From Tribonema minus (Eukaryota; Sar; Xanthophyceae; Tribonematales; Tribonemataceae): a DNA stretch of 64,000 nt. This document shows, in pieces, positions 5,498-63,826 of this stretch (position 1 is the stretch's first letter; each line of letters starts with the position of its first letter). Location: positions 1,426,001-1,490,000 of the forward strand of contig JAFCMP010000223.1 in the NCBI GenBank assembly GCA_017506865.1, in the 5' to 3' direction. A program made the translations under genes and the position numbers. The notes beneath the pieces are model-generated. The model saw only the letters and a program-made list of their open reading frames with translations. It had not been told where the DNA came from and did no database searches.

Positions 5498-8400
5498 TCA
5501 AACAGCGTCACCACACACTGCAATGCAAAATAGCAACGCCACCGCGCGCACCTCTAATGAGCTGATCGATGTGACGGACGTCTGCCGCGGGGCCGCGTAC
5601 GTCGGCAGCACGTTGCCCCCGCCCCCCGCGTCCCCCCCCGTCCCCCCGCTGTTGGCGACGCACAGCGAGAGGAGCGTCACCCCATTGTCCAGGATGCTCA
5701 GCCCCAGGGTGTACGGCTGGTAGATGACGCCCGCTTGGACGAGCACCGCCACGACCGAGCACGCGAGGGTGAAAGACACGCTGAACGCCATGGCCAGTAT
5801 GGCCCTGTAGATGAGCGTGTGGTAGACCCTGCTCCCCCTGCGCACGACAGTTGGCGCATTTGACGGAAAGAAAATTAAGTCTTCAGCAGGGACCCTGGTC
5901 TGCATACGCTCGCAGTGGTCATCAGGGTCAGGCCGTGCAAAGCAGCTACTTGCTGCTACACACACTTCAATGACGTGTACACTCTCTCCTATTTGCCATC
6001 ATCTCTGGCCCGCCCCTCTTTGATCGCTCTGCTCATTGCGGCGCCAGCCCCTCCCCTCATGGTGAACAAGTTCAAGAGGCAGCGCCTCGCGAGGCATGCC
6101 TTCCAAGCAGTATACACTTGAAGTTAATACTTGAAGTAAGAATTCCTACTACGACCTTTAAGCACCACTGGCCTCAATCAAGACCATGCCTCTAACTCGA
6201 AGCGCACCTGCAGCCCCAACCCTCACCAACCCCCATACATACGTGAAGCAAGACGACCAACTTCGAACACACCTTCAAGTCCAGGTGACGTCGTCATCTC
6301 CGACCGCCGCCCGCCATCTACGCTCCCCCTCCCCCCCCCCCCCCCCAACCCCCGCGCACGCCAATGCCCTTCATGACGCACATGTTGCAAGCAGCCTGAC
6401 TCGCAAGCGTGCATTTGTCACCTCTTGGCAATAAATACTGGCAGCAAAGAACTTCACACCTTAGACGACAGGTCGCGTTCACGACAGGGTCGCGACGGAC
6501 TGTCGTGAAACGACAGCCAAAAGTCCTGTCGCGACGGTCCGACGGACCCATCGCCACCTTCCTGTCGTCTAGACGACGCCGTCGCGACAGGTCTCGCTGA
6601 CGTCATGTCGTCTAGACGACGCCGTCGTGCAATGGAACCACTTTTACTGTCGTGTCCTGTCGTGTGTTACAGGACGCACATACAACTGCTACAGGGTCGA
6701 CAGCAAGGCTTAAGAGGCATGAGGATAGCTGACGAAGCATAGCGCAAGCTCTAACACCATTGTTGGCACAGGCGCTAGGCTGAAAGATGTGACGTTTTGC
6801 AATCGCACTTCAATTTCTGCTTGAAGTTTGATCTGTCGTTCCTGTCGTGAACGAGCTCGCAAAACCCCTGTCGTCTAGACGACGCCGTCGCGACAGGCCG
6901 GCGCAAGTTCCTGTCGTCTAGACGACACCGTCGCGACAGACTGGCGCATGTTACTGTCGTCTAGACGACGCCGTCGCGACAGGCTGGCGTAAGTTCCTGT
7001 TGTCTAGACGACGCCATCGCGACGGACTGTCGTCTAAGGTGTGAACAACTTCCCGTATGCATATGCCCGCTTTCTGGCGATGGTCAACTCCAACCACTGC
7101 TCCCCCCTCCGTGCCGTCCCTGCTCTACATGTTTATAAATGTGAATACACGGTACCTCTCTTCAAAGCTTGAACTTGAAGTTGCACAACAAGTTCAACTT
7201 CAACTGTATGTGTACTCACTTTCAAGTGGCGGTCATCTCCACCTGCCGCCCCTTCGCACTTCCCCTGCGTATATACATTAGACTGACAGTACCTCTCTTC
7301 GACGCAATATATTTGAAGTGAAACATGTGTGGACTCACTTTCTAGCGACGGTCATCTCCGCCCGCCGCCCCCCCTCACCGCCGTCCCCGCCGCCCCCCTG
7401 GCGGCGCGCGAGCCCCGTCCCCTTCAAGGCGCGCACGTGCGACAGCAGCGGCGTATACTGAAGTACAACTTCAACTACAACTTCTCGAGTATATGCGTAC
7501 TCACTTTCTAGCAACGGTCATCTCCGTCCGCCGCCCCCCCCCCTCACCGCCGTCCCCGCCGCCCCCCTGGCGGCGCGCAAGCCCCGTCCCCCTCATGGCG
7601 CGCACGTGCGACAGCAGCGGCGTATACTGAAGTACAACTTCAACTACAACTTCTCGAGTATATGCGTACTCACTTTCTAGCGACGGTCATCTCCGCCCGC
7701 CGCCCCCCCCCCTCACCGCCGTCCCCGCCGCCCCCCTGGCGGCGCGCAAGCCCCGTCCCCCTCATGGCGCGCACGTGCGACAGCAGCGGCGTATACTGAA
7801 GTACAACTTCGACTACAACTTCTCGAGTATATGCGTACTCACTTTCTAGCGATGGTCATCTCCACCCGCCGCCCCCCCCCCTCACCGCCGTCCCCGCCGC
7901 CCCCCTGGCGGCGCGCAAGCCCCGTCCCCCTCATAGCGCGCACGTGCGACAGCAGCGGCGTATACTGAAGTACAACTTCAACTACAACTTCTCGAGTATA
8001 TGCGTACTCACTTTCTAGCGACGGTCATCTCCGCCCGCCGCCCCCCCCCCTCACCGCCGTCCCCGCCGCCCCCCTGGCGGCGCGCAAGCCCCGTCCCCCT
8101 CATGGCGCGCACGTGCGACAGCAGCGGCGTATACTGAAGTACAACTTCGACTACAACTTCTCGAGTATATGCGTACTCACTTTCTAGCGATGGTCATCTC
8201 CACCCGCCGCCCCCCCCCTCACCGCCGTCCCCGCCGCCCCCCTGGCGGCGCGCAAGCCCCGTCCCCCTCATAGCGCGCACGTGCGACAGCAGCGGCGTAT
8301 ACTGAAGTACAACTTCAACTACAACTTCTCGAGTATATGCGTACTCACTTTCTAGCGATGGTCATCTCCGCCCGCCGCCCCCCCCCTCACCGCCGTCCCC

Positions 8401-13365: not shown

Positions 13366-13599
13366 GTGAGCGGTCGCGCAGCGCGCGTTGAGCACTGAGA
13401 CAGGCTCTGTATGCAAGTTGAAGTGGTAGGAGAGGGGGCTGCGCATGCGTTCTCGGCAGCGGTTTGTGTGTGAGGAGCGCAGTGTCGCGCACAGGGACCA
13501 GCGTGGTGGTGCGCGTCTTTTTGTTCAACTGTGCAGGTGAACAGCAATTCCTGTGGCGGTGACCGCCCGCGTGCACACTGCGTAGAGCACGCCTCTCAC

Positions 13600-14030: not shown

Positions 14031-14224
14031 CACTCCAGTACTATGACGCCGCTGCCCCAACAGGAGGCAACATTGCTCAGCGGTTGCAATGTTGTGTCAT
14101 TTGGCGCTTTGTCTCGTTGTGCGGCGGTGCGGCACCATGGCAAACAGGCGGAGATGTTCCTCTGTGATTGCTGATCCCAGTATGCGTCATGGCAATCCGC
14201 TCCGCGCGGCCTGTTCAATGCACA

Positions 14225-18700: not shown

Positions 18701-21700
18701 TCATCCGCTGCCGTTGCCCTCAACAGACCACAGTAAACAGCCACAAAGCAGCTAACATCAGAGGGCAGGCAGAGATTGCTAGTTGCAGTGGAAAATGCAG
18801 GGCTGAGATGCACTCACTTTCGTGAGATGCCACACAGCAAGTGGTGATGTGACGAATCAGCAGCCGCATGTTTGCAGCATGTTTGCAATCGCCACCTGAT
18901 GGAAAGCAGTTGGCCGCCTAGTCCTCAATGTTTACAACTTCAACTGTTGAAGTGCACCCACCCCCCGCTTCAGCAGTTACATGAACGCATCAGCAGTCAC
19001 ATGAGAGCTTTCCGCGCTACTGCAGGGTGCGGGACTTGGAGTCGGTGCCGGAGATGCTGCAGCAGAAGAGCATACAGCAGGTGAGCGCATGATGTTCACA
19101 TGTAGCTGTGACATGCGCTCTGCCGTTTCGCCCGCGACGGGTATGGCAGTTACACTCGGGCCATAGGTCCATATACTTCTGCGGCTCACGACTAGCGTAC
19201 AGTCGAGATGAACACATTTTGTATGTGCGCATGACGGACACTTGGTGTTGATGGACTGACTGCGAGATGTACTCCATTCGAGGTGGCGAGTAAGTAAGTC
19301 CCAAGATGCCCCACAGGTTCGCAAGTGATACAGTCGTACGGCGACTTTCCACAGTGCCCGCCGCTGCGCACGCATGACGCTGAGGTGCCATGTTTATATA
19401 CTCCAAGGTAAGTTTTCAAGCTGAAGCTGCAGTTAGTCTGTGATCCGCAGGTTTGCGAGTGGTACACGCAATCGCACGATGATGTACGCCAGGCGCTTGC
19501 GCAAGATTTTGACTAGCACTTAGCCTTTTTGCAACATGGTATAATGTACTTCAACATGAAGTTGCATGCACTCTGTGATGTCCACGCAGGTCCGCGAGTG
19601 GTACATGCAGTCGTATGATGATATACGCCAGTGCCCGCCGCCGCGCACGCGCAAAGCCGAGAAGCACTTGGCCTCAGTGCTACCAGCTGCTGTTGTGTGC
19701 AATTTTGTACTTTTGTACAAATGAATCAAATCCTTGCGTAGGGCGCGAAAAGCCCAGATGATTGATTTGATTTCACAGCTCATAGTACAGAATCTTCGTG
19801 GCATTTCTGTACTTTCGGTGCTCTTTCGCTCAGGTTCGCGAATGGTACGTGCAGTCGTATGACGACATACGGCAGTGCCCGCCGCCGCGCACGCGCGAAG
19901 TGGAGAAGCACTTTGCCAAGCTGCTGCACGACATCTACTCGCGCCACGCGCCGGTGCTGCTCACGATGGCGCGCGGCGTGTGGGAGCTGCGTGAGAGCTT
20001 CCGGGCCAGCGGCGACAAGCACGCGCGCGATCACGTGAGGCTTTATGTTGTGTATTTCAACTAGTGACGCCCCTTAAGCACTGATGTTGCGTCAGGGGCA
20101 GTGGGGGCAAGCACACGCGCGGTCACGTGAGCCCCTGTGTGCCCTTGTGTGGTCAACCTTGTGACGCTCTCAGTGAAGCCCTTGAGCGCAGTGCACTTGA
20201 CGGATGGCTGTCGTGATGGTTCATGTCTCACAATTATTCTTTCAACGTGCGAGAGTTGCGCGAGAGTTTTAGGGCCAGCAGCAACAAGCACGCGCGCGAT
20301 CACGTGAGCTCCCGTAGGCTTCTCGCGCCTCAGACAATTGATGGTTCCGAGCACAGTGCTGTTGGCAGATGCTCTCATCACACTATCGACTTCAGTTGAC
20401 AGATGATTGGCAGTCCTGGTTACAAGAGACCTGCCTGCCCCTGGCTTGAGCAGTCCCATGACTTCAACACTGCCCATGCAACTTCTCAATCACCCCCGCC
20501 TCCTCCCCCCTCCCCCCCCCCCCCCTCAGTTCTACGACTTTGACCGCCTCCACAACTTCCTGGATGGCTTCTACATGAGCCGATGATCCCACAACTTCAA
20601 CACTGTTTGTGCAACTTCCCAACCCCTCCCCTCCCCCTTTTCCCCCTCAGTTCTACGACTTTGACCGCCTCCACAACTTCCTCGACGGCTTCTACATGAG
20701 CCGCATCGGCATTCGCATCCTCATCGGCCACTACCTCGCGCTGCGCGAAGGCCACCCCGGAGGCGGCGCCGCCGGCGACGACTGGATAGGCATGGTGTGC
20801 CAGACGACTAGCCCCGCGGCCATCGCGGCTGCCGCGATTGAAGACGCGAAGTTCGTGTGCACGCGCCAGTACGGCGACGCGCCAGATGTGACGCTCCACG
20901 GGCGGCTCGACCTCACCTTCTCCTACGTGCCCAGGTGATGCGCTGTTGTGAAGGGTACATCAGATGGGTTCTGCGTTTTACGTCATGGGAGAGTGCCTTA
21001 CAGTTCACGTTTTCGACGTCGTCATGGTGAACAAAGAATATGCGTTGATGTATGTTGGTGACCATGCATGGGATGTGACGCTCCACGGGCGGCTCGACCC
21101 CACCTTCTCCTACGTGCCCAGGTGATGCACTGTTGTGTGCACCATTGTGCAACGTGGTCTGTGCGTTTCACATTATGGAACTGTGCCTCGGAGTTCGCGG
21201 TTTCGTGTTGTTGTGGTATGGAAGGCATATGCCTGACGAATGTTGCCTACTTGTGTACAGTCGGGACGTGACGCTTAACGGGTGGCTTTGACCTCACATT
21301 CTTCTATGTGCCTAGATGATACACGGTTGTGGATTGCATGCTTCGACGTTCGACATGTATAGTGGGGCATGCGCATAGGTGTGCACTGGACGTAGATTGT
21401 GTACTTCACCACTACACAGGCCGGGTGTGACGCTCCACAGGCAGCTAGGTAATGTGGCGATGCGCACGGCGTGAGACGCTTGCTTTGCGTTGTACGGCAT
21501 AGAAGCTTACCTCAGCGTTCACGCAACAAGGTGTATGCTCGATGTACCTACCACCATGCACCAGATGTGACGCTCCATAGGCGGCGTTTCCGTTACGTGC
21601 CGCAGTGATGCAGACATTGCGCACGGCGTACGGCGCATACTTGATGCAATATCAACTGTTGAGGGCTCAACTTCAACAATAAAGCTTGAACTGCAGTCAG

Positions 21701-23433
21701 TTTGCACGCTGCTCCAGGACACACCTCAATGGATTGCACCTTGGGTCGCTAACCCTAGCCCTAACACCACCCCTTGCATCCCCCGCGCAGCCACCTGCAC
21801 TACATCATGATGGAGCTGATCAAGAACAGCATGCGCGCAACGGTCGAGTACCACGGCCTAGACGAGATAGACATGTACCCCATACGCATCGTCATTGCTG
21901 ACGGCGAGGAGGTGCGTCACCTTCTGTAACTGTTATGTACGGTAACTGTATTTGGTATCAGTCGATCTTCAATTGCTCTGGAACCGGTCTGTTTCCAGTC
22001 ATGAGCCGAGTTCCACGGTGTGAACAAGATAGATATACACCCCATCTTCATTGTCATCGCCGACGCGAAGGTCGTGCATCATCGATTGTGACCGTTCGTT
22101 ACTGTAGCCGGTCTCTGGCAGCACTGCAGGACACCAACAAAAGCACTCTTGGAAGAGCTCGTGATGGTTCACCAATGTGTGCACGAGATCTAAGGGTTAT
22201 TGGGGTTAAGAGGTGCGCTGCCTCTCGACTTTTTTCTAGCTGTTTTGGACACAATGCAGGACCGTTCATCGGCAGTATCGTAACGGTAACCCAGTTTCCT
22301 CGCTGGCGGAACACGATGTTCCATAACATCCTAGGGGTAGGGTTAGAGAAGGGACATGCCCTGCATTACGCCAGCCCCTCCTTAGCTGGTAATGCACTGC
22401 TAGTGTTATTACAGCCACAGCCATGACAAAAAGACCTCGTCTCATTGCTGAGTGTCCTTATTAGACCTCGTCTCGTTTCTGAACTGTCATCACTGGGGTT
22501 TCATGGCGTAAAAATATGGAGGGACAAATTCGAGACTGCTTCCTTGTTGCAGAACAGATACAGACATGAGTCTGTTTGCACAAGTCATGCTAACCTGAAT
22601 CCGAACCCCAAACCTGATTGCAGAATGAGGATGTCGTCATCAAGGTTGCCGACAAAGGCGGCGGCACCCGCCAATGTTTTCTGATGATTCAGAACAAATT
22701 CAAGCAGCGTCGCTCACCATACCTGTATTGATGTATAAGTCTCTCCTTGTTATGCGCCCTTTCCATTTTTCGTGCGCCTCCCACTAGCCTTGAACCAGCT
22801 GTCATTGCTACTGTGACTGCAGAACGAGGATGTTGTCATCAAGGTCTCGAATGAGGGCGGCGTCATCCGCCAGGTCCTCGACTCTGTATGTACACATCAT
22901 TCAGCGTCGCTCACCAATTCTAGACACGAGTCTGTTCACGCACCTGACACTGACCCGAATCCAAGAACCCTAACCCTACTTGCAGAATGAGGACGTCGTC
23001 ATCAAGGTCGCGGACGAAGGCGGCAGCGTACCGCACATTATGCATCACTCACCAGATCTAGACATACATCTGTTTGCATACCTAACGCTAACCCGAATGC
23101 AAACCCTAAACCTACTTGCAGAACGAGGACGTCGTCATCAAGGTCGCGGACGAAGGCGGCGGCATCCGCCGCTCCTACATGAACCGCATCTGGTCGTACC
23201 TCTTCACCACAGCCGACCCCGCCGTTCAGAAGGGCTTCATCGAGCTCGGCGAAGTCGAGAGCGACCACGCCAAAGAGTCGCCCCTGGCGGGTCTCGGCTA
23301 TGGCCTGCCGATATCGCGCTCGTACGCGCGCTATTTCGGCGGCGACCTCAGCGTCATGTCGATGGAGGGGTACGGGACGGACGCGTTCGTGCACTGCAGC
23401 AGGCTCGGGCACCACTCGGAGCCGCTGCCGTGA
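15742..23433 (+). CDS. PDK: pyruvate dehydrogenase kinase, mitochondrial
   Basis: Phosphorylates and switches off the E1-alpha subunit of mitochondrial pyruvate dehydrogenase. Seven exons: 15742-16062, 18293-18378, 19026-19080, 19834-20034, 20651-20934, 21791-21911, 23122-23433. All phases close, giving 459 residues. Start: MRCVRRQVCARLRTRTTF is Arg-rich with no acidic residues, like a mitochondrial presequence; an upstream in-frame ATG at 15640 is possible. Family motifs in order: KQTGVSLKTLIDTG; QVASFLHRELPIRLAHR; VREWYVQSYDDIRQCP; RHAPVLLTMARGVWEL; FYDFDRLHNFLDGFYMSRIG; N-box ELIKNSMRAT; G1 box DEGGGI; G2 box GLGYGLPISRSYARYFGGD; and SMEGYGTDAFVHCSRLG near the C-terminus. These are the GHKL ATP-binding boxes of the PDK/BCKDK family. 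The GYGLPISR…YFGGD ending favours PDK over branched-chain kinase. A Gln-rich stretch (~QQQQLQHWQQWQQQ) follows the presequence. Confidence 0.93.
19310..19700 (+). repeat. decayed copies of the start of PDK exon 4
   Basis: Three copies precede the true exon at 19834. They are near 19312 (CCACAGGTTCGCAAGTGATA…), 19447 (CCGCAGGTTTGCGAGTGGTA…) and 19587 (ACGCAGGTCCGCGAGTGGTA…). The last matches ~100 bp of the exon, through the CCGCCGCGCACGCGCAAAGC part, and then loses the reading frame. Each keeps a CAG acceptor. Confidence 0.85.
19732..19805 (+). repeat. dispersed repeat A, diverged copy
   Basis: Shares GGGCGCGAAAAGCCCAGATG and ACAGAATCT with copies at 51633-51727 (+) and 43373-43467 (-). See those entries. 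Confidence 0.55.
20085..20330 (+). repeat. copies of the PDK exon 4 end and donor
   Basis: Two copies follow the true exon end at 20034. One is near 20095-20132 (GGCAAGCACACGCGCGGTCACGTGAGC). The better one is at 20252-20310 (GAGAGTTGCGCGAGAGTTTTAGGGCCAGCA…GATCAC|GTGAGC). Both retain the GTGAG donor. Confidence 0.8.
20500..20590 (+). repeat. copy of the start of PDK exon 5 with its poly-C tract
   Basis: After a long C run and CTCAG, about 63 bp match exon 5 (TTCTACGACTTTGACCGCCT…CTACATGAGCCG), and then the copy breaks into TGA. The true exon starts 20651 after a similar C-rich tract and CTCAG. Copy and exon differ at only two or three positions. Confidence 0.9.
21070..21625 (+). repeat. four decayed copies of the PDK exon 5 end and donor
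   Basis: The true end is at 20934 (TACGTGCCCAG|GTGATGCGCTGTTGTG). Copies start near 21074, 21265, 21425 and 21565, each with GTGACGCTCCAC or GTGACGCTTAAC. The first matches over ~70 bp including the donor and following intron. Later ones are progressively more degraded, for example TATGTGCCTAGATGATACAC at 21307. Confidence 0.88.
22010..22080 (+). repeat. copy of the PDK exon 6 end
   Basis: CGAGTTCCACGGTGTGAACAAGATAGATATACACCCCATCTTCATTGTCATCGCCGACG-type sequence follows exon 6 (21791-21911). It matches its last ~65 bp with substitutions and ends AAG|GTCGTGC in place of GAG|GTGCGTC. Confidence 0.75.
22600..23045 (+). repeat. three copies of the start of PDK exon 7
   Basis: Copies start at about 22623, 22823 and 22986. 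Each begins TTGCAG or CTGCAG then AATGAGGA or AACGAGGA, and matches 55-65 bp of the true exon (23122). The third is nearly identical until its GGCAGCGTACC end. Each is preceded by CCCTAA-like or AACCCCAAACCT sequence, as is the true acceptor. Confidence 0.9.
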
Positions 23434-45608: not shown

Positions 45609-46043
45609 CTTGCTGCACTTGCTGAAGCTGCAGAGGGTGTGTGAGGCTGTTTGGTCCAAGCAAGAGCCAAGGTTCAACCAAAAGATGAAGCGCACATACA
45701 AGAGGCCAGACCTATGTACGCTACATGTAGGGTTCGGTGGATGCAGCAAAACACAAGTGTGGTTCACCAACGTGGTCATGGATGACTGAGTGTTCACTTC
45801 TGCGACAGTCTTTGTAGGCAATTCTCAGCGTGGTACAGTACTGAACCCCTTCCACGATCAAGTGCATTTCTGAAGAAACGCTGGTGTTGCGCCCTGAATC
45901 GTGCTGTGTCTTGCATGACACGCGGCAGTCTTCAAACAACCAAAATGTACTTTATTAATTCTTGATCAAATGTACTATCAACGCGCTCTCCCCCTCAACG
46001 AAAAAAGGTAAACTGACTTTCAGCCCCCCCCCCGCCCCCCCCC
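45609..46043. other. intergenic, CHLP 5' flank and MATE 3' flank
   Basis: About 435 bp between two same-strand genes. A run of C blocks at 46023-46110 falls at the 3' end of the MATE gene. No promoter motif is identified. Confidence 0.4.
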
Positions 46044-49000
46044 CTATGACCCCTCCACTCGCCCCTCTACCCCCCCCTCGTCCCCCTCCCCCCCCACCCC
46101 CCTCTCCGGCACCCAGTACGGCCCCCGCTTCCTGTCCAGCAGCCGCCACGCCGCCCCCAAAAACCTGCCCACGAACATACCCGTGATTCCCCACCACACT
46201 CCCACGACCCCCGCCTCCGGCCGCAGCCGCCCAACGGCGAGCACTGCCGCGGTGCCGACGCTCGTCGTCACGAGCGTCGTCGCGCCGAGCCAGCGAAACT
46301 GCTGCGCGCCGACCAGCAGGCCCTCCATGAGCAGCGTCGCCGCGACGAGCGGCTGCTGCAGCGCGAGCAGCGGCACGAGCGCGCCGATGCGCGCCGCCAG
46401 CGCGGGGTCGCGCGTGAACGCCGCCGGCAGCGCGCCGCGCGCTGCTGCCAGTGCTGCGCCCAGCAGCGCGCCGCTGGCGACGGTGAGGGCGACGACGCGC
46501 GCCGCCATGGCGCGCGCCGCGCGCAGCTCGCCGCGGCCCAGGTAGCGCGCCCCCAGCACCTGCAGGGGGGTAGAAAGTTTGATGTGGAAATGGGGGCGGG
46601 GAATGGGGGGTGTGATGGCCTACGTGATGTGAGGGCGTGGGTGGCGGGAAAAGGGTCTAGTGGAGGTCATTTGGTGTCTGGCGCACGTGCTAATGCTTAG
46701 AGTGGCGCGCCGCGCCTGACTCTCCACACCCGAGGTAGCGCGCATCGAGCACCTGTCGGAGGCGACCGTTGGGTGCCGGCGCATAGCTCAGCACATAGGT
46801 TGGGCCCTGCTGAGCACTGACGTGCCTGTTCATGCAGGTGCTCGCAACACATACACCACAATGATCAATCCAGTACATACTTCTATAGACTATACTACCT
46901 ATCAGGAGTAGCGCTCAGCCCATGACAATTCCTGCGTGCAGGCACACGCCGCTGCTGACTGCTACAAGAACGGTACTGCTGATGCACCTTACAAGACCCA
47001 TAAGCATACATTTGCAGCTCAAATCATGTCTACAATACCTACATACCTGTGCAGCGATCGACGGCGCCTCCGCGACCAGCGCCAGCAGCAGCCACACGGA
47101 CAGCGCCACCTGGTGCGCGCCCACGTGCACCGTGCCCATGCGCGTGGCAACGCTCGTTGCAGCCGCCCAGCATGCCTGCAGCCAGGGACAAATGATCAAT
47201 TGTCGATTAAAGAAGGACGCAGATTCATTGATGATGTTGGTTTGCATAGTGCACACCGCCGGTGTGTGCCGTCGATTATGTTAGCAATGCACTCTGATAC
47301 GGGACTAATACCATCAGGTGTAATTTGCCTGACTATGCGTGTGTGCAATGCTCGTCGCGGCCGCCCAGCACGCCTGCAGCACAATGACACGTGACCATTC
47401 TGGTGACGCAGTTTTGGAAAAGGTGGTTTGCATCCATGCACACCAAGAGCATGCGCTGTAGTCAACATGGTGAATGCCCCCGGTGCAGGACCAGTTTAGT
47501 GCACGATATGCATGTGGCAGCGCTCGCAGCATACATGCGGCAACTCACAGGCGACTCCTAAGTTGCGCAGCTGCCACACAAACTCACCCGACCAGCATTA
47601 TTGAAGATAAAGCCAATGACTGCAGCAGCGGCGACCACGGTTATTGGTGGAAGGCACTTGTGGCTAACCATCCTTTGTCACCTAGAGCTCTACGATTTTT
47701 TCATTCGTTTTAATAAAGCAGAGCCTGCTGCCCTGAATGTGCGCATGCCATCACCAGCAAACAGCCATTGAGGACACTGCCCTCCACTACTTTTAAGACA
47801 GTCATGAACAAAAAGTGCAACATGGACGCCATGAACGACGTGGCAAATGCGCCCGACGGTTGGAAGTGCGCTGTGCGCATCAACGTCTGAGCGCTGCCGC
47901 TCCGCGTGTGCACGTGTGCAGCATACCTAGCATACCCCACAGAGGTCTGATGAAGAGTGCGCTACGCATGCAGCATACCCCAGTAAACCCCACAGAACCG
48001 CCTGATGTAGAGTTCGTGCGCCACTACAACGATCCAAAATGAGCCCATGCGGGACCAGCGCTGGGGCGTAAATGACAGGGCATGGCAGTTGCAGAGCTCC
48101 AGTTGCACTTCCGCCTGCAGATGTGAACCGGCGCTTGACGACAGCACGGTGATACCTATTATATATGCGGCACGGCCAGTAAAAAAGTCTCCGAATTCAT
48201 CTGGGCATGCTCGTGGCAGCGCCAGAATGGAGTCCTTACGCATCAGATGTGCACTTGATGCGAAGCAGCAGTACCCTATACCCTACTAGCGACATACATA
48301 CCAACCCTAAGCATGTGCTTTGTGGCTCATGCCACCGGTACAACAGCGCATACGAATGTTCGCTCTTCGGCGCTGCGCGCCCCCTGTCTAGCGCCCCATG
48401 CTCCGCTCTGAGCCAACCTGGCGGCTTCATCCCTGGCACGACAGCGAGCTGCGCTCTCGCACATACACGCTTACTCATGGTCATACTTCGAAGTACATGA
48501 CTATTTATGGCAGCAGCGCTCACCATGAGTGAGACGGTGCGGACGAGCATCGCCGCATTTGCAAACAGCACAACACGCAGCAGCTCCAGCCCCCGCGGCG
48601 CCCCCCCCGCCCGCCCTTCCCCCCCCCCTGCCCCCCCCGGCGCCGGCTCCTCCTTCCTGCCGAGCGCTTTCGCCAGCGCCGGCAGCCGCATTCTGCCGGC
48701 GCGCACGTCGCGCGCAATGAAGCCCGCATACGTCGCCAGCGCCAAGTACTGCGCGCAGACCGTCGCCTGAGCTGCGCCCCGCACGCCGAGACCGCACTTG
48801 AACATGAGGATCGGGTCTAGGATGAGGTTGGCAACGGCGGCCAGGAGGGACGCAATCGCGGGCGTGCGCGTGTTGCCTGAGAGTGGAGGTGCGGGGGCAT
48901 GCGCAGCAGCGGCGGCGCGCAGGCATATTGGTGATAAGGAGACTTGAAGCAAGGGCCGTGTTATGGCGCCGTAGCGCGCACACGACTCTCTGACAGAGAT

Positions 49001-50435
49001 GTATTCATGTTGCCTGGGGGGGGTGCGTGGGCATGCACAACATTGGCGACAAGGCCTTGAAACAAGAGCCGCTGCGCGGCGCCGTAGCGTGCATATGGTT
49101 TTGTGACAGAAGCGCGGTCAGCGAGAGAGGCGCTTTGCGGCGTATGACAGACGCCGTCTGCACGAAGTGCGCGTTGAAGTCCACAATTGTTCAACTTCAA
49201 CAGCTAAATCTAAACAAGCACACAGTGTGCTCGCAGCAGGCCCTCGCAGACTGTCAGCAGCAGCGTCGCCGTCACCACAACCGCTCGATTTTACCTCCAA
49301 CAGTACACTGCAACTGCACAGTGCTCACCGTGCCCTCGGAGCGGCCCTCGCACACCGTCAGCAGCCGCAGCGCCGGCGCCGCCAGCGTTCTCACTGGTAT
49401 GTACAAGTGCGCATTGCTGACCACACCGTGAACTGCAGCAAGTATACTTCAACAAGTCCACGCAATGCTCATCGTGCCCTCGAAAGCGGCCCTCGCACAC
49501 CGTCAGCAGCAGCACTGCCGGCGCTCTGATTGATTTGAGCAGTCCCTTCGAGCCCTTATTGATACAAGTTCATAAGTACACTTCAACCTCACAGCGCTCA
49601 CCGTGCCCGCGGAACAGGCCCTCGCATACCGCCAGCAGCAGCACCGCCGGCGCCGCCATCGCACTGATTACTTTGAGTAGTACACTTCAAGTACATGGCG
49701 AGAATTAACGAGGTGCTCACCGTGCCCTCGAAAGAGACCCTCGCACACCGTCAGCAGCAGCACCGCCGGCGCCGCCAGCGCGCGCGTCGTCAGGTACGAG
49801 TGCGCGTCGTTGTACAGCACGGACCCGGGCCCCGCCCCCATGAGCGACAGCATGGGCCTGGCGCGTGTCAGCAGCAGCGCTCCGACGCCAAGCCCTAGCA
49901 CTAGGGCTAGCAGCATGGACTGCTGCGCGACCTCGCCCGCTGCCTCCGGGTTGCCCTGCGCCAGGTTCTTGCTGACGAGGCTGGTGGTACTGTGTGTAAG
50001 CGCCCTGAAGGTGTTGAAGCAGAAGTGAAATATACTCGTACATGGCCCTAGACTCGCGATTGAGGTGGGTCCCAGCCGACCAGTGTAAGCCGTGTCGACC
50101 AGACTCAGCACCGGATCCACCAGCAGTGACAGCAGCGCAGGTGCAGCCAGAATTGCTATATCTTTGTCGTGCGAAGAGTAGCACCATGAAGGGAGCAGCC
50201 GCGTCTGCGGTTGTGCATCTGATGACGATTCGTCTGGCGGTCCTGGCGGTCCAGATGCTGCTTGCAATCCAGCAGCCTTCAGAGGCCATCCGATGGGCCT
50301 CACAGCTGACAGTATTCTGGGTTTACTGACGCTGTGACTGCATGCTGTAGTGGGATACTGAAATGCGAGTGCACAATGGTATTGCTGCCGTAGGAGGCTG
50401 GCAATTGCCACTGAGATGACGGCATGTTGCCGCAT
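46044..50435 (-). CDS. MATE-family efflux transporter (DinF-like)
   Basis: Multidrug and toxic-compound extrusion proteins export organic cations or metabolites by H+ or Na+ antiport. Four exons: 50435-49721, 48876-48524, 47175-47047, 46559-46044. Phases close, giving 570 residues. Family features: ILAAPALLSLLVDPVLSLVD and TAYTGRLGPTSIASLGP (helix 1-2), CEGLFRGHG joined to NTRTPAIASLLAAVANLILD PILMF across intron 1, HVGAHQVALSVWLLLALVAE (helix 8), and ATLLMEGLLVGAQQFRWLGA in the last domain. The region around exon 2/3 (AMLVRTVSLM|ACWAAATSVA) fits helix 7-8. The N-terminus MRQHAVISVAIASLLRQQYH then CALAFQYP could be a signal peptide with a plastid-type A-F cleavage site, so plastid-envelope location is possible. 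The C-terminal tail is Gly/Glu-rich and coded by a C-run. The start lies 161 bp from the divergent p28 gene. Confidence 0.9.
46685..46765 (-). repeat. copy of the start of MATE exon 4
   Basis: GGCGCGCCGCGCCTGACTCT…GAGGTAGCGCGCATCGAGCA matches 46500-46560 with changes. The CACCTG acceptor remnant is kept. Confidence 0.75.
47335..47560 (-). repeat. copies of the start of MATE exon 3
   Basis: 47342-47390 (GTGTGCAATGCTCGTCGCGG…CAGCACGCCTGCAGCAC) matches the exon start at 47140-47180. A weaker copy is near 47513-47550. Confidence 0.7.
47605..47708 (-). repeat. dispersed repeat B, copy
   Basis: Reverse complement reads TTAAAACGAATGAAAAAATC, GTAGAGCTCTAGGTGACAAA, GGATGGTTAGCCACAAGTGC, CTTCCACCAATAACCGTGGT. 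It matches 62206-62312 over ~100 bp at high identity. Lies in MATE intron 2. Confidence 0.8.
48885..49115 (-). repeat. tandem copy of the sequence upstream of MATE exon 2
   Basis: 48895-48985 (GGGCATGCGCAGCAGCGG…GGCGCCGTAGCGCGCACACG) is repeated at 49028-49115 (GGGCATGCACAACATTGGCG…GGCGCCGTAGCGTGCATATG). Between them TGTTGCCTGG recalls the exon acceptor at 48871. Offset is about 135 bp. Confidence 0.75.
49235..49660 (-). repeat. four copies of the MATE exon 1 end and donor
   Basis: The true end on + is GCTCACCGTGCCCTCGAAAG at 49715. Copies are at 49598, 49467, 49322 and a weaker one near 49237. All except the weakest include CACCGTGCCC or CATCGTGCCC, then CCCTCGCA…CAGCAGC and the CCGGCGCCGCC stretch. 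An ACTTCAA word (or a variant, ACTGCAA, near 49307) lies 15-30 bp before each clear copy. Confidence 0.9.
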
Positions 50436-54819: not shown

Positions 54820-57800
54820 ATGGCGGCGCTCACGCGAATGATTGGGAAGATGGTGAGGGAGACAGGGCAGGCGCTGGAGGTGCTGGGCGTCATCGCTGGC
54901 GATGACAAGATCCACCAGGAGTACTGTGAGTGTCACTTCATCGCCGTATGTGCGTGTGTTGAGTAAGGTTGTTGTAGCAGCAGTGGCGGAAGGAGCCATC
55001 TGTCGCTGCGGGTTGCAAGTAAACCTTACTCCGGACCTCATACAGCGCCATATTTGCTGACTGCACGGTGTAAGCATCAACTATGCCTGCTGACTGCACG
55101 GCGTAAGCATACATCAGGCCCGCCAGTGACATGAGGCTCTTGTGCATCTTTTCTGCCACCTCACGAGGACGCTGTTGCGTCCTGCACCTCTGCTCTCGAA
55201 CAGCCACATGGTGCTAGCTGTAAGACTGAAGCAAATTTGCGACAGGCTTGTCAGGATAGATGGCTTGTCATTTAGCGTCGTCAGCTACCATCACGATGAA
55301 CCATGGGAAACACAGCTGCTGCTGCGGCAATTATAGGTGCCGCATAAGCGCCGCTAATGCTGCTACTTGTGTCACACCACCCTCGCCACGGCCTTCGTCA
55401 ACATGACGATGGCATTAACATGTCCGATTCCACCACAAGGCAAGGACTAGAAGTTACAAACGGGTGCACATGCCACGCCAGCACTGAATTCTGCCACGCC
55501 AGCATGTATGCCTGATGAATACATTAGTATGATTTGGATCCAGGCTGCCTCAGGCTGAGAGTCGTCGCTTTCAACTGCAGTCTGTCGCTTGCCAAAGCAC
55601 CATGACCACTCCAGTGTTACCGGCAGAGCGAGAATGTCATATGGCGTACGCGCTCGCTGCATGAGACCTTGCAGGAGATAGCAAGACCCCTCGCACGCGC
55701 TTCAGGTCCGATTACAAACATGCCCCTGTCATGGCGCGGCTCGCTTGACCAGAGTCCGGACCCCTCCTCTGTCTCCCCCTGCAGTCACCAGGCGTCATCA
55801 TCTGTCAATCCTGTCAATGCAGAGGTGCCAGTCGCTTCACGAGTTGTAAATATACCCCCCGCCCCCCCCCCCTCCTCTTCTGCAAACATCAGCCATCGCC
55901 CGTTATCGCAACAATGCCGCTCGCTTCACCCGCACTCCGTACAACCCTCCCTGCGCACGACAGTCACCAGGCATCGGCACACACCATGCGCACGCATACT
56001 TCTATGAACTGCACCTACTCTCGCCAGCACACCCCCACACCCCCCCCCCCCCCCCCAGTCACCGAGCATCGGCACACCATGCACTTTCCGCTACATCTGC
56101 ACAGTGCACGTACCGTCATGTGCCTATTTAGGCCGACCGGACCAACATTTGGAGCGTTCCGGGCAGCGATCCTAATTGTGCCTGGGTATTTTTTTGGGCA
56201 TTCCCAAATTAGGCCCGGTGGCACAATTCGCGTGTCGACCTTGTTGTTGCCTGGCCCGATTGAGTGCTCGCGTGGTCAACTAAATGAAGCGGAACGCCAT
56301 AGCAGGCAAGCAGATGGCGACTGCCATGCTCACGAGTGTCCTGATACTGGTGCACAGACTATTTGCAGCCGCACACTGATGGCCTTCCCCGTTCACGACA
56401 CACCGTTTCTGATTTTCGCAAACCAACTTCACCTGGAAGTTGAATTTTGTGTCGAAACTGTTTCAGATGGACATCGCGCTCATGGATGGTCATTGTGTGC
56501 TCATTTGGGGTGTTGCTGATGCTCTGTCCTAATTAGGCCTGGTGCTTTTTTCGCGTGATCCTATTTCAGTGTCCGAGTGCTTTTTTCGACGATACTTAAT
56601 GTTGGTCCGGTCGGCCTAATTAGGCACAAGACGGTACTGACGCCAGACCCCCCCCCCCCCCCCCCCGGCAGTCACCAGGCATCGGCACACCATGCCCCTC
56701 GGCGCGAACGAACCCGCGCTCGCGCCCGGCGTGTGGGTCGCACCCACCATGCACACGCATACTTCTACATACTTCACATGCTGACGTCAGAACCCCCCCC
56801 CCTCCCCCCCGCAGTCACCAGGCATCGGCACACGATGCCCCTCGGCGCGAACAAACCCGCACTCGCGCCGGGCGCGTGGGTCGCACCCACGGCCAGCGTC
56901 GTAGGCGACGTCGCCCTCGCCACCGACGCGTCCGTCTGGTACGGCGCCGTCGTGCGTGGCGACGCTCAGCGCGTAACTGTCGGCGCGCGCTCCAACGTGC
57001 AAGATGACGCAGTGCTCAGCGGCGGCGCGGCGCTGGGGGAGGACGTGACGGTCGGGCACGGCGCGATCATCGCGGGGTCGACCGTGGGCGACCGCTGCCT
57101 CATCGGCATGAAGGTATGTATGTAATGGGGGTTGTTCTCGTGTACTTATAGTCGAGCTCGTATGTACGATCATACAATGGTCACACATCATCACAATTGG
57201 GGTCGACCCTGGGCGACCGCTGCCTCATCGGCATGAAGGTGTGTACTGGTAGCCGTACTTGTGCACTCATACTCACATGCGTGTACTCACAGAGAGACAG
57301 GTTAAAAAAAAAGGTTTAGGTGTAGGGTGTGGATGATGCCCTACCGCAGCCCGTGTGTATCCTCCGTCCCGCCCCCCCCTTCTCCCCACCGCTGCACCCG
57401 ACAAACTCTGTACTTCAACTTCAAGTACTTCAAAGTATTGATTCGCCGAACCCCCCCCTCCCCCCCCCCCATCCTGTGCAGGCGGTCCTGGACGGCGCGG
57501 ACGTCGCCTCCGACGCACACCCGACGAGCTCTGTACTTCAACTTGAAGTACTTCAAAGTATTAATTCACTGAATCCTCCCCCCTCCTGCGCAGGCGGTCC
57601 TGGACGGCGCGGTTGTCACACCCGACCGACGACGACGACCACTATACCTCAACTTGAAGTACTTTGAAGAAATTGATGTAACCGATGTGGTAACCCCCGT
57701 TCCCCTGCGCAGGCGGTCCTGGACGGCGCGGACGTCGCCTCCGACGCCATCATCGCCGCCAATGCCGTCGTGCGCCCGGGCTCCAAGGTCCTGTCCGGGC

Positions 57801-57952
57801 AGATGTGGGCGGGCAACCCCGCCGTCTTTAGGCGCGCGCTCACGCCGGACGAGAAGGCGTACCTGGCCAAGTCCGCTGCGTCGTACGCGGCGCTCGCCGC
57901 GGCGCACAGGGCGGAGGACGACGCGCGGCGCGCGCAGCTCGCCGCCATGTAG
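54820..57952 (+). CDS. gamma-carbonic-anhydrase-like protein (left-handed beta-helix)
   Basis: Three exons: 54820-54925, 56815-57113, 57713-57952. Phases close, giving 214 residues. Exon 1 MAALTRMIGKMVRETGQALE matches the N-terminus of mitochondrial gamma-CAs (…RETGQAL…). Exon 2 gives FTRHRHTM, PGAWVAPTASVVGDVALATD, ASVWYGAVVRGDAQRVTVGA, SNVQDDAVL, VTVGHGAIIAGSTVGDRCLI, and exon 3 AVLDGADVASDAIIAANAVV, LSGQMWAGNPAVFRRAL and a C-terminal helix. Hexapeptide repeats fit a left-handed beta-helix trimer. In plants and algae such proteins form a matrix domain on mitochondrial complex I. Of the three zinc-binding His, only the one in VGHGA is present; the others are Ser (VLSGG) and Ala (IIAGS). This therefore resembles the inactive CAL-type subunits. 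The IGM|KAVLDG joint is one residue shorter than the usual IGMGAxxLDG. Confidence 0.9.
55770..56095 (+). repeat. decayed copies of the gamma-CA exon 2 acceptor
   Basis: GCAGTCACCAGGCGTCATCA (55783), GACAGTCACCAGGCATCGGC (55961) and CCCAGTCACCGAGCATCGGC (56055) match the start of exon 2 (GCAGTCACCAGGCATCGGCA at 56811). The last is preceded by a long C run like the true acceptor. Confidence 0.85.
56111..56636. mobile_element. 526-bp MITE with 39-bp terminal inverted repeats
   Basis: Left end 56111-56149 begins TACCGTCATGTGCCTATTTA and continues GGCCGACCGGACCAACATT. The right end 56598-56636 is its reverse complement with two mismatches. TA at each end, or GTAC if one base more is counted on both sides, could be the target duplication of a Tc1/mariner-like insertion. 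No transposase frame is present. It lies in gamma-CA intron 1 between copies of the exon 2 acceptor. Confidence 0.8.
56655..56770 (+). repeat. longest copy of the start of gamma-CA exon 2
   Basis: After a C run and CGGCAG, ~80 bp repeat exon 2 (TCACCAGGCATCGGCACACC, ATGCCCCTCGGCGCGAACGA, GCGCCCGGCGTGTGGGTCGC) with a few changes. The copy ends at GCACCCACCATGCAC. The true exon begins at 56815. Confidence 0.9.
57180..57245 (+). repeat. copy of the gamma-CA exon 2 end and donor
   Basis: GGGGTCGACCCTGGGCGACC, GCTGCCTCATCGGCATGAAG|GTGTGTACTGG matches the exon end at 57074-57113 with one or two changes. It keeps a GTGTGT donor. Confidence 0.9.
57405..57665 (+). repeat. two copies of the start of gamma-CA exon 3 plus linked intron repeat
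   Basis: GCAGGCGGTCCTGGACGGCG occurs at 57478 and 57591 before the true exon at 57713. The first copy matches ~42 bp of exon, the second ~32 bp. Linked intron sequence TGTACTTCAACTTGAAGTAC, TTCAAAGTATTAATTC is also repeated (57410-57440, 57532-57562, partly 57644). Confidence 0.9.
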
Positions 57953-58946: not shown

Positions 58947-61900
58947 ATGACGCAGCAGCAGCTCCTCTTTGGGCTCTATCAGGGCGGTCCTGCTGTGGAG
59001 CTGCTCTCGCCATCTGGAGCTGCCCCAGCGCAGGGCTGGCTGGTGTCTGGGGGAGTGAAGAAGCTGTATGACAAGAGCGTCAAGGGCTATGTGCTGGGTG
59101 TCGATGGGTCCTCCACGTACCTGCAGCTACCCAAGGCGCCCAGTAAGCAACGTGAGTGCTTTGCAGACTAGAAAATGAACGTGTTCGGTGTGTCTGTGTC
59201 AAGTTGGAGTTGAAACTTTATAGATCTTTGTATATAGACGTAAGCAAACTGGATTTCTAGCCAACGCATGAGACCTTTGTCGTCATGTTGACTTCTGCAA
59301 CAGGTGTCTTTGCAGGGCGAATATTGAAGCTTCCCTAGTGCTCGCCGAAGGGCCATATGCTACCAAGCATGACGGCATTTCCTGCGCATGGCAGGGTCCA
59401 ACGTCCACATGAAAGCCGCTTACTTTTGCAGTCACAATGCGTCAGCAGCAGCTCCACATGCGCTGAATCACTCATCAACCCCTGACAACCGAACTGCAGT
59501 ACCGTGTAAGTGCCTAGCCTTGCCAAACACGCTTAGGCACAGTTCAGTGTCAGCATGCCTCAACAGGCATCCGTGTGCAGGCGGCTTGTCGCTGCAGCAC
59601 GCTCTGTGCGCTGCTGCACTGCGCAGCATCATTTCATATACACCATGTGCTGCTGGCAGTTTTTGAAAGGCAATGTCCACTTCGTGGGGAAGCGATTTAC
59701 AAAGTCGCTGACTCTGACTCTTGTGCATGACGCTGTGTATTCCGTGTAGTTCATTCGACAGCTGGCCTGCATGGTAATTGCAGATGCAGATGTACAGAGT
59801 GCTTTCGGCAGATGCGCTTGTACGTCAAGTATGTAGGTTCCACCTCACAATAGCCAGAGTTGACCGGGTGTTGGTCTAGACCAACGTCACTCAGCTCATG
59901 CAGGAGTTCCTGGTGCTTCAGATGAGCGAGTATTGGTTCGGACGTCAACTTGAAAGACGCTCTGCAAATGTGGCGTGCTGTCTTAGAAGTATGTAGGTTA
60001 AGTTAGGGCTGAGGATTTCAGCGGGGCACGCGTGCACCGGCGTGGTCAGCACTACATGGACGTTGGCCGTGATGCTTTGATACCTTTTGTATGGCCCATG
60101 CCACGCTGCTATAAGAAGTGCCATGCTCATTGGGGCTGTAGAGACCTCTGCACTGCGTACGCGCGGTGGACCCCATGCGACCACACAAAGCTTGTGCCGT
60201 GACACAATTTAACTCACAAACACGTACATCAACTCACAACAGTGACATAGGGTACATCAGGTGCCCGATCGCCTACAAGATGGGCTGCCGGTAAGGGACC
60301 TTTACGCTGGTGATCATTACGTCGAGGTCACTCTGCCAGTGGGGGCTCATGTCAACTGTGAACTTTGTAACTTGAAGTTTGTCTACACTTGCACTTTTCA
60401 AGTTCTGTGCTTTTGCTCCGCGCGCCTGCGCTGTGCCCCGCGCTGCTGGACCGCTGGATGCACTTGAACATGAAGTGTAAGTTCAACTCAAAAGCACGAT
60501 GACAATGTCTTGAATTGACCTGATCCGCTTTGCGTGCGCCGCAGTCAAGTATGGAGACAGTGTTTTCTGTACTTCAGCTTCAACAGTCCGCTCCTGCGTT
60601 GTACCAGACCTCATGCTGTTGAGCCCTGTAACGCAGTTAAACAGGAAGTAATTTCAGCCTAAAGTACAAGATCAACTGACTCTTCCGTGGCGGCCCGCTT
60701 TGCTTTGCGCGCCCCGCAGCCGCAGTGGGCCTCACGACTAACCCTAGCCCTAACCCTGCACCCTGTCATGCTGTGCGCCCGCATGTTGTGGACGCAATGT
60801 CTATCGACATTCAGGCTCACAACACTCCTGATCGTGAAGCTCAAGTGCAGAAATGATGGCGACGTGCAGTGACTCACCCCATGGACCGTCCGCTGTGCTC
60901 TGCGCCGCACTGCAGTGGGGCTTACGCAGCGCTTTCTGGCCCTTCAGCTGTGCCTCTCGCTTACGGCGAGCAAGCCGTTCTCACTGGAGCTGGTGGTGAC
61001 GGACGCACAGGGCACGCGGCGGAGGCTCAACGTCAGCAGCGGCTTCAGAGAAGTGCACGCGACACCTCTGGTGGGTCTTTGTATGACGTTGTTGTGTACC
61101 ATATTCGATGTCACTGAACCTCTCGCCAATATGTCTGCATGTAACTTTAGACGCAAGCCCTTGTTGTAAGTAGAGTATGCTGATGGTGAGTGGAGAGTCA
61201 ATGTTAGCAGCGGCTTCAGAGACAAGCACGCGACGCCGCTGGTGTGTGGGCCTTCGCACGGCGCAGCATTGCAGCGTATGCTTTGTCATTGAACCGCTCT
61301 CCACAATGTCTTAGGGTCAGGGTTAGGTTAGGGTTAGGATTAGGGTTGGGGTTAGGGTTAGGGTTAGGGTTAGGGTCAGTGTACTGCAGACGCGACTATG
61401 TCGTGAAAGCATCATGCCGTCTAAGGTGTGTAAGCCTTTGTTTCTGCACAACGTATGCTGGTGGTGAGCGGAGGGTCAATGTTAGCAGCGGCTTCAGAGA
61501 AGTGCACGCGACGCCGTTGGTGGGTGGCAAGCGCACATCATTGCACTCCCGCCCTCTAAGAAACGCACGCGACGGGCACGCAATGCAGAGCTTTGCGGCA
61601 CATGTTCGTTGCCAACCGCTTTTTCAGGCGCATGCACGCGGCGCGCATTCCATTGCGTTGTGTTGGAGCATTCGGCGGTTACATGCGCATTGCCGTTCGC
61701 AGGCTTGACGGTTATGGCAGTTGCACTTGCCGGTACACAGACCACAATGCAAACACTTCCACCAGACGACCGGCGCCAGTTGTGTGCTGCTGGAAGTGAA
61801 AAGAGACGTGAGCGTCCGCTTTTGCCCGGGCTGTGACCCCCGGACCCACACCCCGCAGAGCAGTGTGCTGCTTGCCTTTGCGCGAACTGTAATACCACTT

Positions 61901-63826
61901 TCACTGCAACTAGCTTCAAAGCCGAGTTGGGGCTAGGGTAAGGGCAGAATCAGCAATAACGTTGGGTTTTTTCTTGCAATGACACTTATGCAGAGGGTTA
62001 GGGTCAAAGTCAGCGGCAGAGCTGAAGTTGGGGCAACGGCCCGGTGTTGAGGTTTAGCGTCACACTGCCACGACATCTCATGTGCAGCGCTGACTGCTGT
62101 AATGTCTGATGCTGTTGTGCAATCCCTGCAGCATGCGCAGATACCGCTGCCGGGCATGGAGGAGCGGCGCGGCGCGTGGACAACGCTGTTCCTAGGTAGG
62201 TATATGAAAAACGAATCAAAAAGATCGTTGAGCTTTAGGTGACAAGGGATGGTTAGCCGCAAGTGCCTTCCACCAATAGCCGTGGTCGCCGCTGCTGCAG
62301 TCATTGGCCACGAGTCAAACAGTGCCACCGTAACCACAGTAGGCAAAAAGACTTCTGTGTGCAAGCTTTTTAGCGTTCGAGGCATGGGTGTTCAGTGTGG
62401 TATGTGCCTGACAAATAGAGATGCATACCCCTGCACCTGGGGCATTCAATCAAAGTTGCTATTTGATGCAAATTGACCGTGTTGTTTGACACCGCTGCCA
62501 ACCCTCGGCATATGCTGTTGCGGTTGTGTTAGAGGTACGAGGCACAGTGTGTTGAAGTTGTGCACTCTCGATGTGCAGAGGCACGAGGCATGGGCGAACA
62601 GTCCGCGAGAGGTGCGCCTTTTTTTTTTTCTCGTCGCATGCAGCGTGCATGAAGCCCCGAGCACGCAGATACCATTGTCCATTGCGACGCGCACATTACC
62701 CGCATGTTACAACAGTGACTTTTGTCAACATTAAATGGCTGCTGCATGCACTTGCATGTGTTGAGCGCTGCCGCACTGCGTGGGACAGCGTACCATATAC
62801 ATACCCCTCAAGCATTGATTACGCATGAGGTCTATGGCATGCTGAAGTGCTTGTATGTTTTATTTGTACCTCATTCAGGTCGCGAAGAAGCCCAGACGGC
62901 AGATGTCCAGCTTGCTACCAGAATCCACATGTGTCTTGTGAACACTTGAAAATGTCTGGATGCGCATCGACCATCACTTCTAAACGGCATCGGCAAATGG
63001 CACCTCGCCCCCTTCTGCGCGTTCTTCAATATATTTTGCAGTACATCTTGCTGACCAAACGTATGATGCGTATGCGCTGTTGCAGACTTGCACGATGCCG
63101 TCAGCTTCTGCTTCAGAGCGGCGCCATTCAAGACGCTGGAGTTCATCAAGATATGCCCTAGCGTTAGGGTCAGGAAGGTAAGAATACCTTTCGCGGCTAA
63201 ATGACCCCTGGGAGTTCGTACAGTTCTGCGCTAGATCATCGTGCGCTGCTCCGTGGTGCTCTCTTCCCTAACTTGATCAAAGCGTGTTGAGCCGTTACAA
63301 GTTCAAACCATCACAATAGAATGCATGACTTTGTTGACGTGCTACTCATTGTCACGCATCTGGCAGGATGGCCAAACTGAATCAACTTCGAACTCCGCCT
63401 GCACAAACTCAAGCCTTGTTTGATCTCGCTGTGTAGAAGTCTCACACATTGCTGTCTTACAAAAAGTTCAGAATATCATACTTAAAGCTAGTGCTGAATG
63501 CCATGATTCAGACTGCAATGTTGGTGTGTGAAACGGTGGCATCCATGGCGCATGTAACCTGGGTGGCCACTTCCAAGTGTTTCATTTGCCTTCAAAGCTT
63601 TTCCAATCCACCGGGCACACTGATAATCGGGCCGCCAATGACCTGCCCATGTCGGTGATTGTCCCGTGCTCCATTTCGTTTGCCCCCTGTATACATACAT
63701 GCCTCCATTGACCACATTCCGTGCTCCATGGCGTCTGTATACCCCATATACTTACATACTCTGAAGCCTTATCTCGTACTCCTCGTTTGCCGCCAGAATT
63801 TCACGCGTGGAGTTTCATCCAACGCG
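58947..63826 (+). CDS. CFAP20DC: CFAP20-domain protein (CFAP20DC / C3orf67-like), 3' end uncertain
   Basis: Exons: 58947-59151 (FGLYQGGPAVELLSPSG … GWLVSGGVKKLYDKSVKGYV … STYLQLPKAPSKQ), 60916-61070 (GLTQRFLALQLCLSLTASKP, FSLELVVTDAQGTRRRLNVS), 62132-62195 (HAQIPLPGMEERRGAWTTLF), 63086-63177 (DLHDAVSFCFRAAPFKTLEF, IKICPSVRVRK), and possibly 63797-63826. Phases close across the first four, giving 172 codons. The order YQGG-x-VE, KGYV-x-x-x-GSS, QLPK…KQLGLTQRFL, DxxGxRRRL, TPLHAxIPL, W-x-x-L-x-DL, LRK follows CFAP20DC closely. The domain is related to CFAP20, a doublet-microtubule inner-junction protein. A ciliary role is inference from family. The 59151 donor (CAAC|GTGAGT) was chosen over AGTAAG eight bases earlier because it restores KQLGLTQRF. 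The gene may continue past the window edge. Confidence 0.85.
60685..60770 (+). repeat. decayed copy of the CFAP20-domain exon 2 acceptor region
   Basis: GCCGCAGTGGGCCTCACGAC recalls CTGCAGTGGGGCTTACGCAG at the true exon (60911). It then passes into CTAACCCTAGCCCTAACCCT telomere-like sequence. Confidence 0.6.
61165..61560 (+). repeat. copies of the CFAP20-domain exon 2 end and donor
   Basis: 61185-61245 (GTGGAGAGTCAATGTTAGCA, GCGGCTTCAGAGACAAGCAC, GCGACGCCGCTG|GTGTGT) and 61466-61530 (GCGGAGGGTCAATGTTAGCA, GCGGCTTCAGAGAAGTGCAC, GCGACGCCGTTG|GTGGGT) match the exon end at 61020-61070. The second is very close and keeps the same donor. A third short trace is near 61560. Confidence 0.92.
61311..61380 (+). 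repeat. interstitial TTAGGG tract
   Basis: About ten TTAGGG-type units with variants (GGTTAGG, GGATTAGG, GGTTGGGG), ending in four regular GGGTTA units. It sits in CFAP20-domain intron 2 between two copies of the exon 2 end. It is too short, and flanked by gene sequence, for a chromosome end. Confidence 0.9.
62206..62312 (+). repeat. dispersed repeat B, best copy
   Basis: AAAAACGAATCAAAAAGATC, GTTGAGCTTTAGGTGACAAG, GGATGGTTAGCCGCAAGTGC, CTTCCACCAATAGCCGTGGT, CGCCGCTGCTGCAGTCATTG. Other copies at 47605-47708 (-) and 34127-34205 (+, partial). It starts ~10 bp after a donor (62196). Confidence 0.8.
62868..62945 (+). repeat. dispersed repeat A, diverged copy
   Basis: CTCATTCAGGTCGCGAAGAA, GCCCAGACGGCAGATGTCCA, GCTTGCTACCAGAATCCACA, TGTG. 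It shares order and spacing with repeat A at 51633. Confidence 0.6.

Follow-up and report, generated by a model that had tools for sequence, protein, structure and literature searches.

Many introns of the alga Tribonema minus carry direct, decayed copies of their own exon borders, in mostly tandem arrays that are private to one border, are concentrated at splice borders beyond what uniform duplication yields, and decay neutrally. The arrays were noticed in a 64,000-nucleotide stretch of contig JAFCMP010000223.1 (positions 1,426,001 to 1,490,000; hereafter the window) in a sequence-only reading, were confirmed in six rebuilt window genes and recur in genes outside the window. We consider it probable that they arise by local tandem duplication of splice-straddling segments, that the extra copies are intronic and neutral, and that the duplicating process is biased to splice junctions. 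The interpretation given in the sequence-only reading is partly supported.

Self-comparison of the window at offsets below 1 kb gave 70 direct pairs versus 9 inverted ones, and a more sensitive comparison gave 107 direct and 11 inverted pairs; three shuffled controls yielded no pairs. Models were rebuilt for six of the earlier seven genes (PDK, CHMP1, CHLP, MATE, gamma-CA and CFAP20-like), comprising 20 introns, all of them GT-AG, and 40 borders. A Pfam scan of ten window open reading frames placed MatE and hexapeptide matches above the cut-off and FAD binding below it; the remaining gene names are presumed from the peptide sequences. Among the 20 duplication clusters in the introns of these genes, 18 span an exon border, compared with 8.05 expected under uniform placement, and the two interior clusters are the weakest (34 and 41 bits). 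Base-by-base reading of CHLP examples revealed copies that comprise the exon edge, the splice site and the intron flank: two copies lie upstream of the exon-3 acceptor, three lie downstream of the exon-5 donor, and the last acceptor sits in a perfect head-to-tail duplication.

To sample the 158-Mb genome (554 contigs), 220 kb beyond the window were fetched. The 18S gene of this genome is eukaryotic according to Rfam and resembles the 18S of an ochrophyte alga. The curated set consists of 22 gene models (6 in the window and 16 outside; AQPa and AQPb, counted as two, are parts of one gene) with 92 introns, GT-AG throughout, and 184 borders. Of the 184 borders, 46 carry copies with 20 bp of exon or more, and the window is richer than the outside genes (21/40 and 25/144, P = 2e-5); the claim that every border has become an array is wrong. 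With copy-level scoring, 99 distinct copies were found over 54 borders, 51 at donors and 48 at acceptors. The nearest copy lies 100-200 bp off at 38 of these 54 borders, 54 of the 86 scored copies have an exon share of 30-60 bp, and 48 of the 86 run into their own intron flank (score of at least 20). The exon part of a copy had been put at 30-115 bp; it is mostly 30-60 bp and does not exceed 119 bp, and the proposed one to about seven copies come down to at most four extra copies per border in the window and five outside. There are 24 arrays with at least two extra copies; their steps are regular in some (116, 111, 101, 112; 116, 115, 122) and irregular in others (e.g. 156, 320, 137, 201), and within an array the copies are more alike in exon share than expected by chance (P = 0.018). 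The youngest arrays are those at window 39321-39577, in CHLP, and at L026 5480-5720.

The copies are private to one border. Of 182 exon edges, 41 had a match in their own intron; the match rate was 1/182 for reversed edges, 0/136 against the intron across the exon, 0/1,028 against non-adjacent introns of the same gene, and 1/74 for exon-interior segments. Start and stop edges of coding sequences on host contigs, which are likewise coding, matched in only 1 of 33 cases (P = 0.007 versus splice edges), and this sole match, where the PDK model ends, is possibly a donor that was not recognised as such. On virus-like contigs, which were kept apart from the host control, matches were found for 1/12 start edges and 0/7 stop edges. 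Four DNA queries with window introns (the full length of CHLP introns 1 and 5 and of PDK intron 4, as well as portions of three others) detected no shared intron family in a search that skips simple and very common words; the only intronic match elsewhere was a C-rich stretch of 41 bp on C509. The contrast with introners drawn in the sequence-only reading is supported.

Tandem duplication falling uniformly along genes would also leave border copies, in that long units cross borders by chance, exon-internal duplications are purged and conserved exons prolong the visibility of what remains. However, cluster-intron pairs span a border in 19 of 21 cases in the window (expected 8.63) and in 27 of 33 outside (expected 13.86), with 0 of 20,000 simulations reaching either value. 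Two clusters were counted in two introns each, such that the 54 pairs stand for 52 clusters and the 46 border pairs for 44 distinct ones; outside the window, six clusters were classed as interior, four of them no more than ~40 bp from a border and the other two, in CDK and EamA, further away. Random uniform placement of the 52 clusters with the same geometry yields 12 border clusters (7-18), where 46 pairs were observed, and puts the number of pure-interior windows at 98 (66-133), where 7 were observed, these effect sizes being rough because spans were taken as solid and detection as perfect. As a conserved exon keeps a copy visible longer, intron letters alone were also compared: 36 of the 158 border flanks (100 bp each) matched the adjoining 500 bp of their intron, versus 46 of 501 interior windows (P = 2e-5), of which 39 overlap border-reaching clusters and 7 are purely interior; an earlier form of this test gave 36/158 versus 80/790. 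With the curated exons masked, 25 of 43 intervals lie no more than 15 bp from a border, versus 15.1 expected for an assumed 150-bp unit (P = 0.0007), and the window, which carries this signal, gave 12/16 by itself (P = 0.001). Masked coverage in the window is 0.30 at the border and has dropped to 0.12 by 600 bp.

Several results weigh against such a bias. In the outside genes alone, the exon-masked test was not significant (13/27 versus 9.3 expected, P = 0.088), and masked coverage is 0.12 in the first 100 bp compared with 0.23 at 300-500 bp, approaching zero beyond 800 bp. Around the 223 borders of ab initio exons, the profile of duplication coverage against distance is flat, and the excess of border pairs in a shift test of these exons was only modest (100 versus 64.6 ± 8.5; highest of 300 shifts, 90); in our judgement, false exons, partly copies themselves, blurred both the profile and the test. 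Genes vary strongly in copy frequency (0 of 5,000 permutations reach the variation observed), and some are poor in copies, with 3/42 borders in a polycystin-like gene, 0/12 in TauE and 0/12 in FMO. The simulation is idealised in the two respects given above, the start and stop edges are few and come from ab initio predictions, and the borders were curated by eye. Codon bias was considered as a driver and rejected, the Spearman correlation with GC content at third codon positions being about 0. Taking these results together, and given that local direct duplications occur beyond introns too (41 of 749 unannotated host windows), we regard uniform duplication as an unlikely, though respectable, account: it fits the flat ab initio profile and the exon-masked test in the outside genes, and conflicts with the cluster placement, the intron-only bias and the scarcity of matches at start and stop edges. 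The earlier proposal of a duplication process at splice borders is supported over the 22 gene models to the extent that duplication is biased to these borders, also when intron letters alone are compared; under masking, this is so for the window and overall but not for the outside genes alone.

Curation by eye was adopted because the gene finder took decayed copies for exons and fused neighbouring genes. This small finder was trained here, and its joint two-strand version, which recovered all six modelled CHLP exons with one donor 20 bp off, served as the starting point. Predicted exons discarded as copies before counting include, in lists that are not exhaustive, window positions 43000-43038, 41589-41666, 40458-40497, 40318-40347, 22823-22885, 22986-23027, 57482-57547 and 57594-57611 and, in sample coordinates, C223 2947-3000, 1652-1666, 18529-18543, 24301-24312 and 29210-29267, C511 10258-10356 and 5502-5566, C334 9382-9465 and C544 22016-22100. 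The CHLP model is without its likely first exon near 45499-45627, which leaves the counted borders unaffected. The joined frame of the polycystin-like model, which is among the genes poorest in copies, holds 9 in-frame stops, and some of its 21 introns are therefore uncertain. Several repetitive or unclear models were excluded, as was the seventh gene of the sequence-only reading, which encodes the membrane protein, together with the minisatellite in its region (window 7325-8633). This minisatellite has a 169-bp unit in 7.7 copies with 97% matches, and the gene finder predicted parts of the unit as exon. All genes on C112 (L018-L021) and C445 (L033-L034) were also excluded; these stretches have long open frames and are poor in introns and splice borders, and they resemble virus-derived DNA within the algal genome.

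The copies decay neutrally as far as is visible. Divergence at codon positions 1, 2 and 3 is 0.118, 0.065 and 0.184 in 73 exon-anchored copies (intron flank 0.265) and 0.159, 0.137 and 0.243 in 63 intron-anchored copies (intron flank 0.240). The ratio of divergence at positions 1 and 2 to that at position 3 (d12/d3) is 0.50 [0.38-0.64] and 0.61 [0.49-0.73], respectively, and a value of about 0.5 is expected for a free copy next to an exon that changes only silently. This pattern led us to reject the copies as functional exons and speaks against their common use as newly spliced introns or exons. Retention of the arrays for a function, as spare or decoy splice sites, alternative exon ends or mini-exons, is accordingly improbable; several copies were accepted as exons by the gene finder, and intact splice dinucleotides in the intron-anchored set (53/63) slightly exceed the neutral guess of 0.726 (P = 0.047), whereas the exon-anchored set (64/73 versus 0.83, P = 0.35) shows no such excess. 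A few borders may make splice use of their copies, but the suggestion that the process creates cassette exons or alternative exon starts is unsupported.

It is very unlikely that the copies are left over from introner insertion or from the birth of introns through tandem duplication of exon DNA (AGGT model). Introns do come and go here, as three introns of the window CHLP gene are absent from its paralogue on C535, which has one of its own. Yet 48 of the 86 scored copies extend into their own intron flank and none (0/86, score of at least 20) extends into the opposite exon, on which intron birth of the AGGT type was rejected; introners were rejected on the lack of a shared intron family among the queried window introns together with the absence of matches to non-adjacent introns. 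Assembly error, in the form of mis-joined or repeated read pieces, can hardly be credited at all. Two ribosomal RNA (rRNA) contigs do differ by many small indels, the 18S gene copies in L035 and L036 being 92.8% identical over 1,027 aligned bases, which points to uncorrected reads in these contigs. Most border copies, however, diverge far beyond read error and carry a codon-position pattern, and inspection by eye also reveals decayed copies of a donor in the CHLP paralogue.

According to the explanation that we favour, segments straddling a splice site, mostly 100-200 bp long and as a rule including 30-60 bp of exon next to the intron part, would be duplicated head to tail, and some duplications would expand into arrays of three to five units. 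Selection would keep the outermost copy, leaving the extra copies in the intron to decay neutrally, and later unequal exchange would alter their number. That the extra copies are always on the intron side, as had been emphasised, is correct but expected: if selection is to keep the exon intact, its only usable copy is the outermost one. The preference for borders is not forced in this way, because a duplication lying within an intron ought to do no more harm; a mutational bias toward splice junctions is therefore the best reading, and the duplicating process itself would prefer these junctions. Candidate causes are breaks or replication trouble linked to transcription or splicing, or chromatin phased on exon edges. 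More specifically, and only tentatively, splice junctions might be mutational hotspots at which transcription- or splicing-linked breakage repeatedly duplicates the surrounding 100-200 bp, such that introns grow from the edge inward and intron DNA continually gains copies of exon edges. Intron growth would be a likely by-product. The proposed lengthening of introns is consistent with median lengths of 1,084 bp with copies versus 659 bp without, but a longer intron also offers more room to find a copy.

The second CHLP gene (C535, L013, minus strand) has two introns in common with the window gene, and its extra intron falls within a single exon of the latter. Two decayed copies are visible by eye at its intron-5 donor, one of them at about the same distance as the window copy, whose identity is 96.7% over 60 bp; none of its 8 borders counts under the rule of at least 20 bp of exon. 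This hints, no more, at repeated turnover at one border, and CHLP intron gain and loss are recent enough for study. A 7.2-kb segment common to C144 and C223 (L040, L041) is 93% identical and contains matches to a two-exon kinase in both; its gaps total 31 positions, with no duplication-sized difference. In L027, a head-to-tail 283-bp duplication (2499-3065) lies 3' of an RPN3-like stop codon and is 100% identical, and it is either a recent non-intron duplication or an assembly repeat.

Table. Copies of exon borders in the introns of six window genes (window coordinates; offsets in bp).
Gene and border	Exon	Position	Strand	Copies
PDK acceptor array	19855-20034	19305..19917	+	offsets 244, 521; up to 88.5% over 87 bp
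PDK donor array	19855-20034	19977..20315	+	offset 269
PDK acceptor duplication	20651-20934	20454..20703	+	offset 121; 96.8% over 62 bp
PDK donor array	20651-20934	20870..21585	+	offsets 187, 381; 97% over 66 bp
PDK donor duplication	21791-21911	21845..22123	+	offset 162
PDK acceptor array	23122-23433	22555..23203	+	offsets 136, 299, 498
CHMP1 donor array	28598-28690	27635..28633	-	offsets 123, 265, 432
CHLP acceptor, perfect tandem 128-bp duplication	last exon (39394)	39321..39577	-	inter-copy gap -1; exon part 96% over 77 bp
CHLP donor array	40626-40885	40111..40705	-	offsets 168, 317, 487
CHLP donor and acceptor copies	41756-41940	41547..42210	-	donor offset 167, acceptor offset 147
CHLP donor copy	42501-42799	42288..42541	-	offset 199
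CHLP acceptor, two copies	42501-42799	42753..43051	-	offsets 122, 239
MATE acceptor copy	46051-46559	46512..46762	-	offset 193; weak, 42.5 bits
MATE acceptor copy	47047-47175	47133..47444	-	offset 198
MATE donor array	49721-50257	49156..49812	-	offsets 119, 248, 392, 497
gamma-CA acceptor copies	56815-57113	55754..56838	+	offsets 143, 756; 92% over 111 bp
gamma-CA donor copy	56815-57113	57074..57245	+	offset 125; 95.7% over 47 bp; missed by window cluster analysis
gamma-CA acceptor copies	57713-57948	57399..57747	+	offsets 119, 231
CFAP20-like donor copies	60916-61070	61019..61527	+	offsets 175, 449

Two further features of the window were observed. Eleven units of the telomere-like TTAGGG lie at 61311-61376, in a CFAP20-like intron. 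Two long open frames, one at 35710-36396 on the plus strand and the other at 36091-36777 on the minus strand, encode nearly the same peptide and form an inverted repeat, which is perhaps part of a mobile element; one of the two frames had no match in Pfam.

How introns lengthen is poorly understood, and border duplication is a possible route of intron growth. If duplication does favour borders, this genome would offer a view of intron growth in which each copy could be dated by comparison with an unchanged exon, and a test of whether exon-edge DNA is damaged by splicing or transcription. Decayed copies also mimic exons to a gene finder, as happened here, which is a warning for annotation.

The border arrays share with minisatellites, as generally known, a head-to-tail arrangement, in many but not all arrays with a roughly constant step, but they differ in longer units, few copies, strong divergence and anchoring at splice borders. 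Introners, as described in PMC9860276, are similar introns common to many genes; they likewise supply algae-like lineages with large amounts of intron DNA, whereas the sequence copied here is private to one border. The Rogers model, as outlined in PMC4974935, attributes intron gain to duplication of an AGGT-holding exon segment. It also invokes tandem duplication within genes, but predicts intron ends resembling the opposite exon, contrary to the copies described above. Border arrays across a genome were not described in the open-access titles and abstracts searched, which is weak evidence of novelty. The statement that no described system has this pattern was too strong, given that one boundary-crossing tandem duplication is on record: in the potato RdRp gene, according to PMC4974935, a recent tandem duplication across an intron-exon boundary created a new intron. 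That direct, local unit holds the 3' side of the intron, the splice site and the exon start, and the copies in T. minus are of this boundary-crossing kind, being direct and local and comprising exon edge, splice site and intron flank. Unlike the single potato case (PMC4974935), with its new intron, of which there is no sign here, the arrays in T. minus occupy a quarter of the borders examined, at donors as well as acceptors, and decay neutrally.

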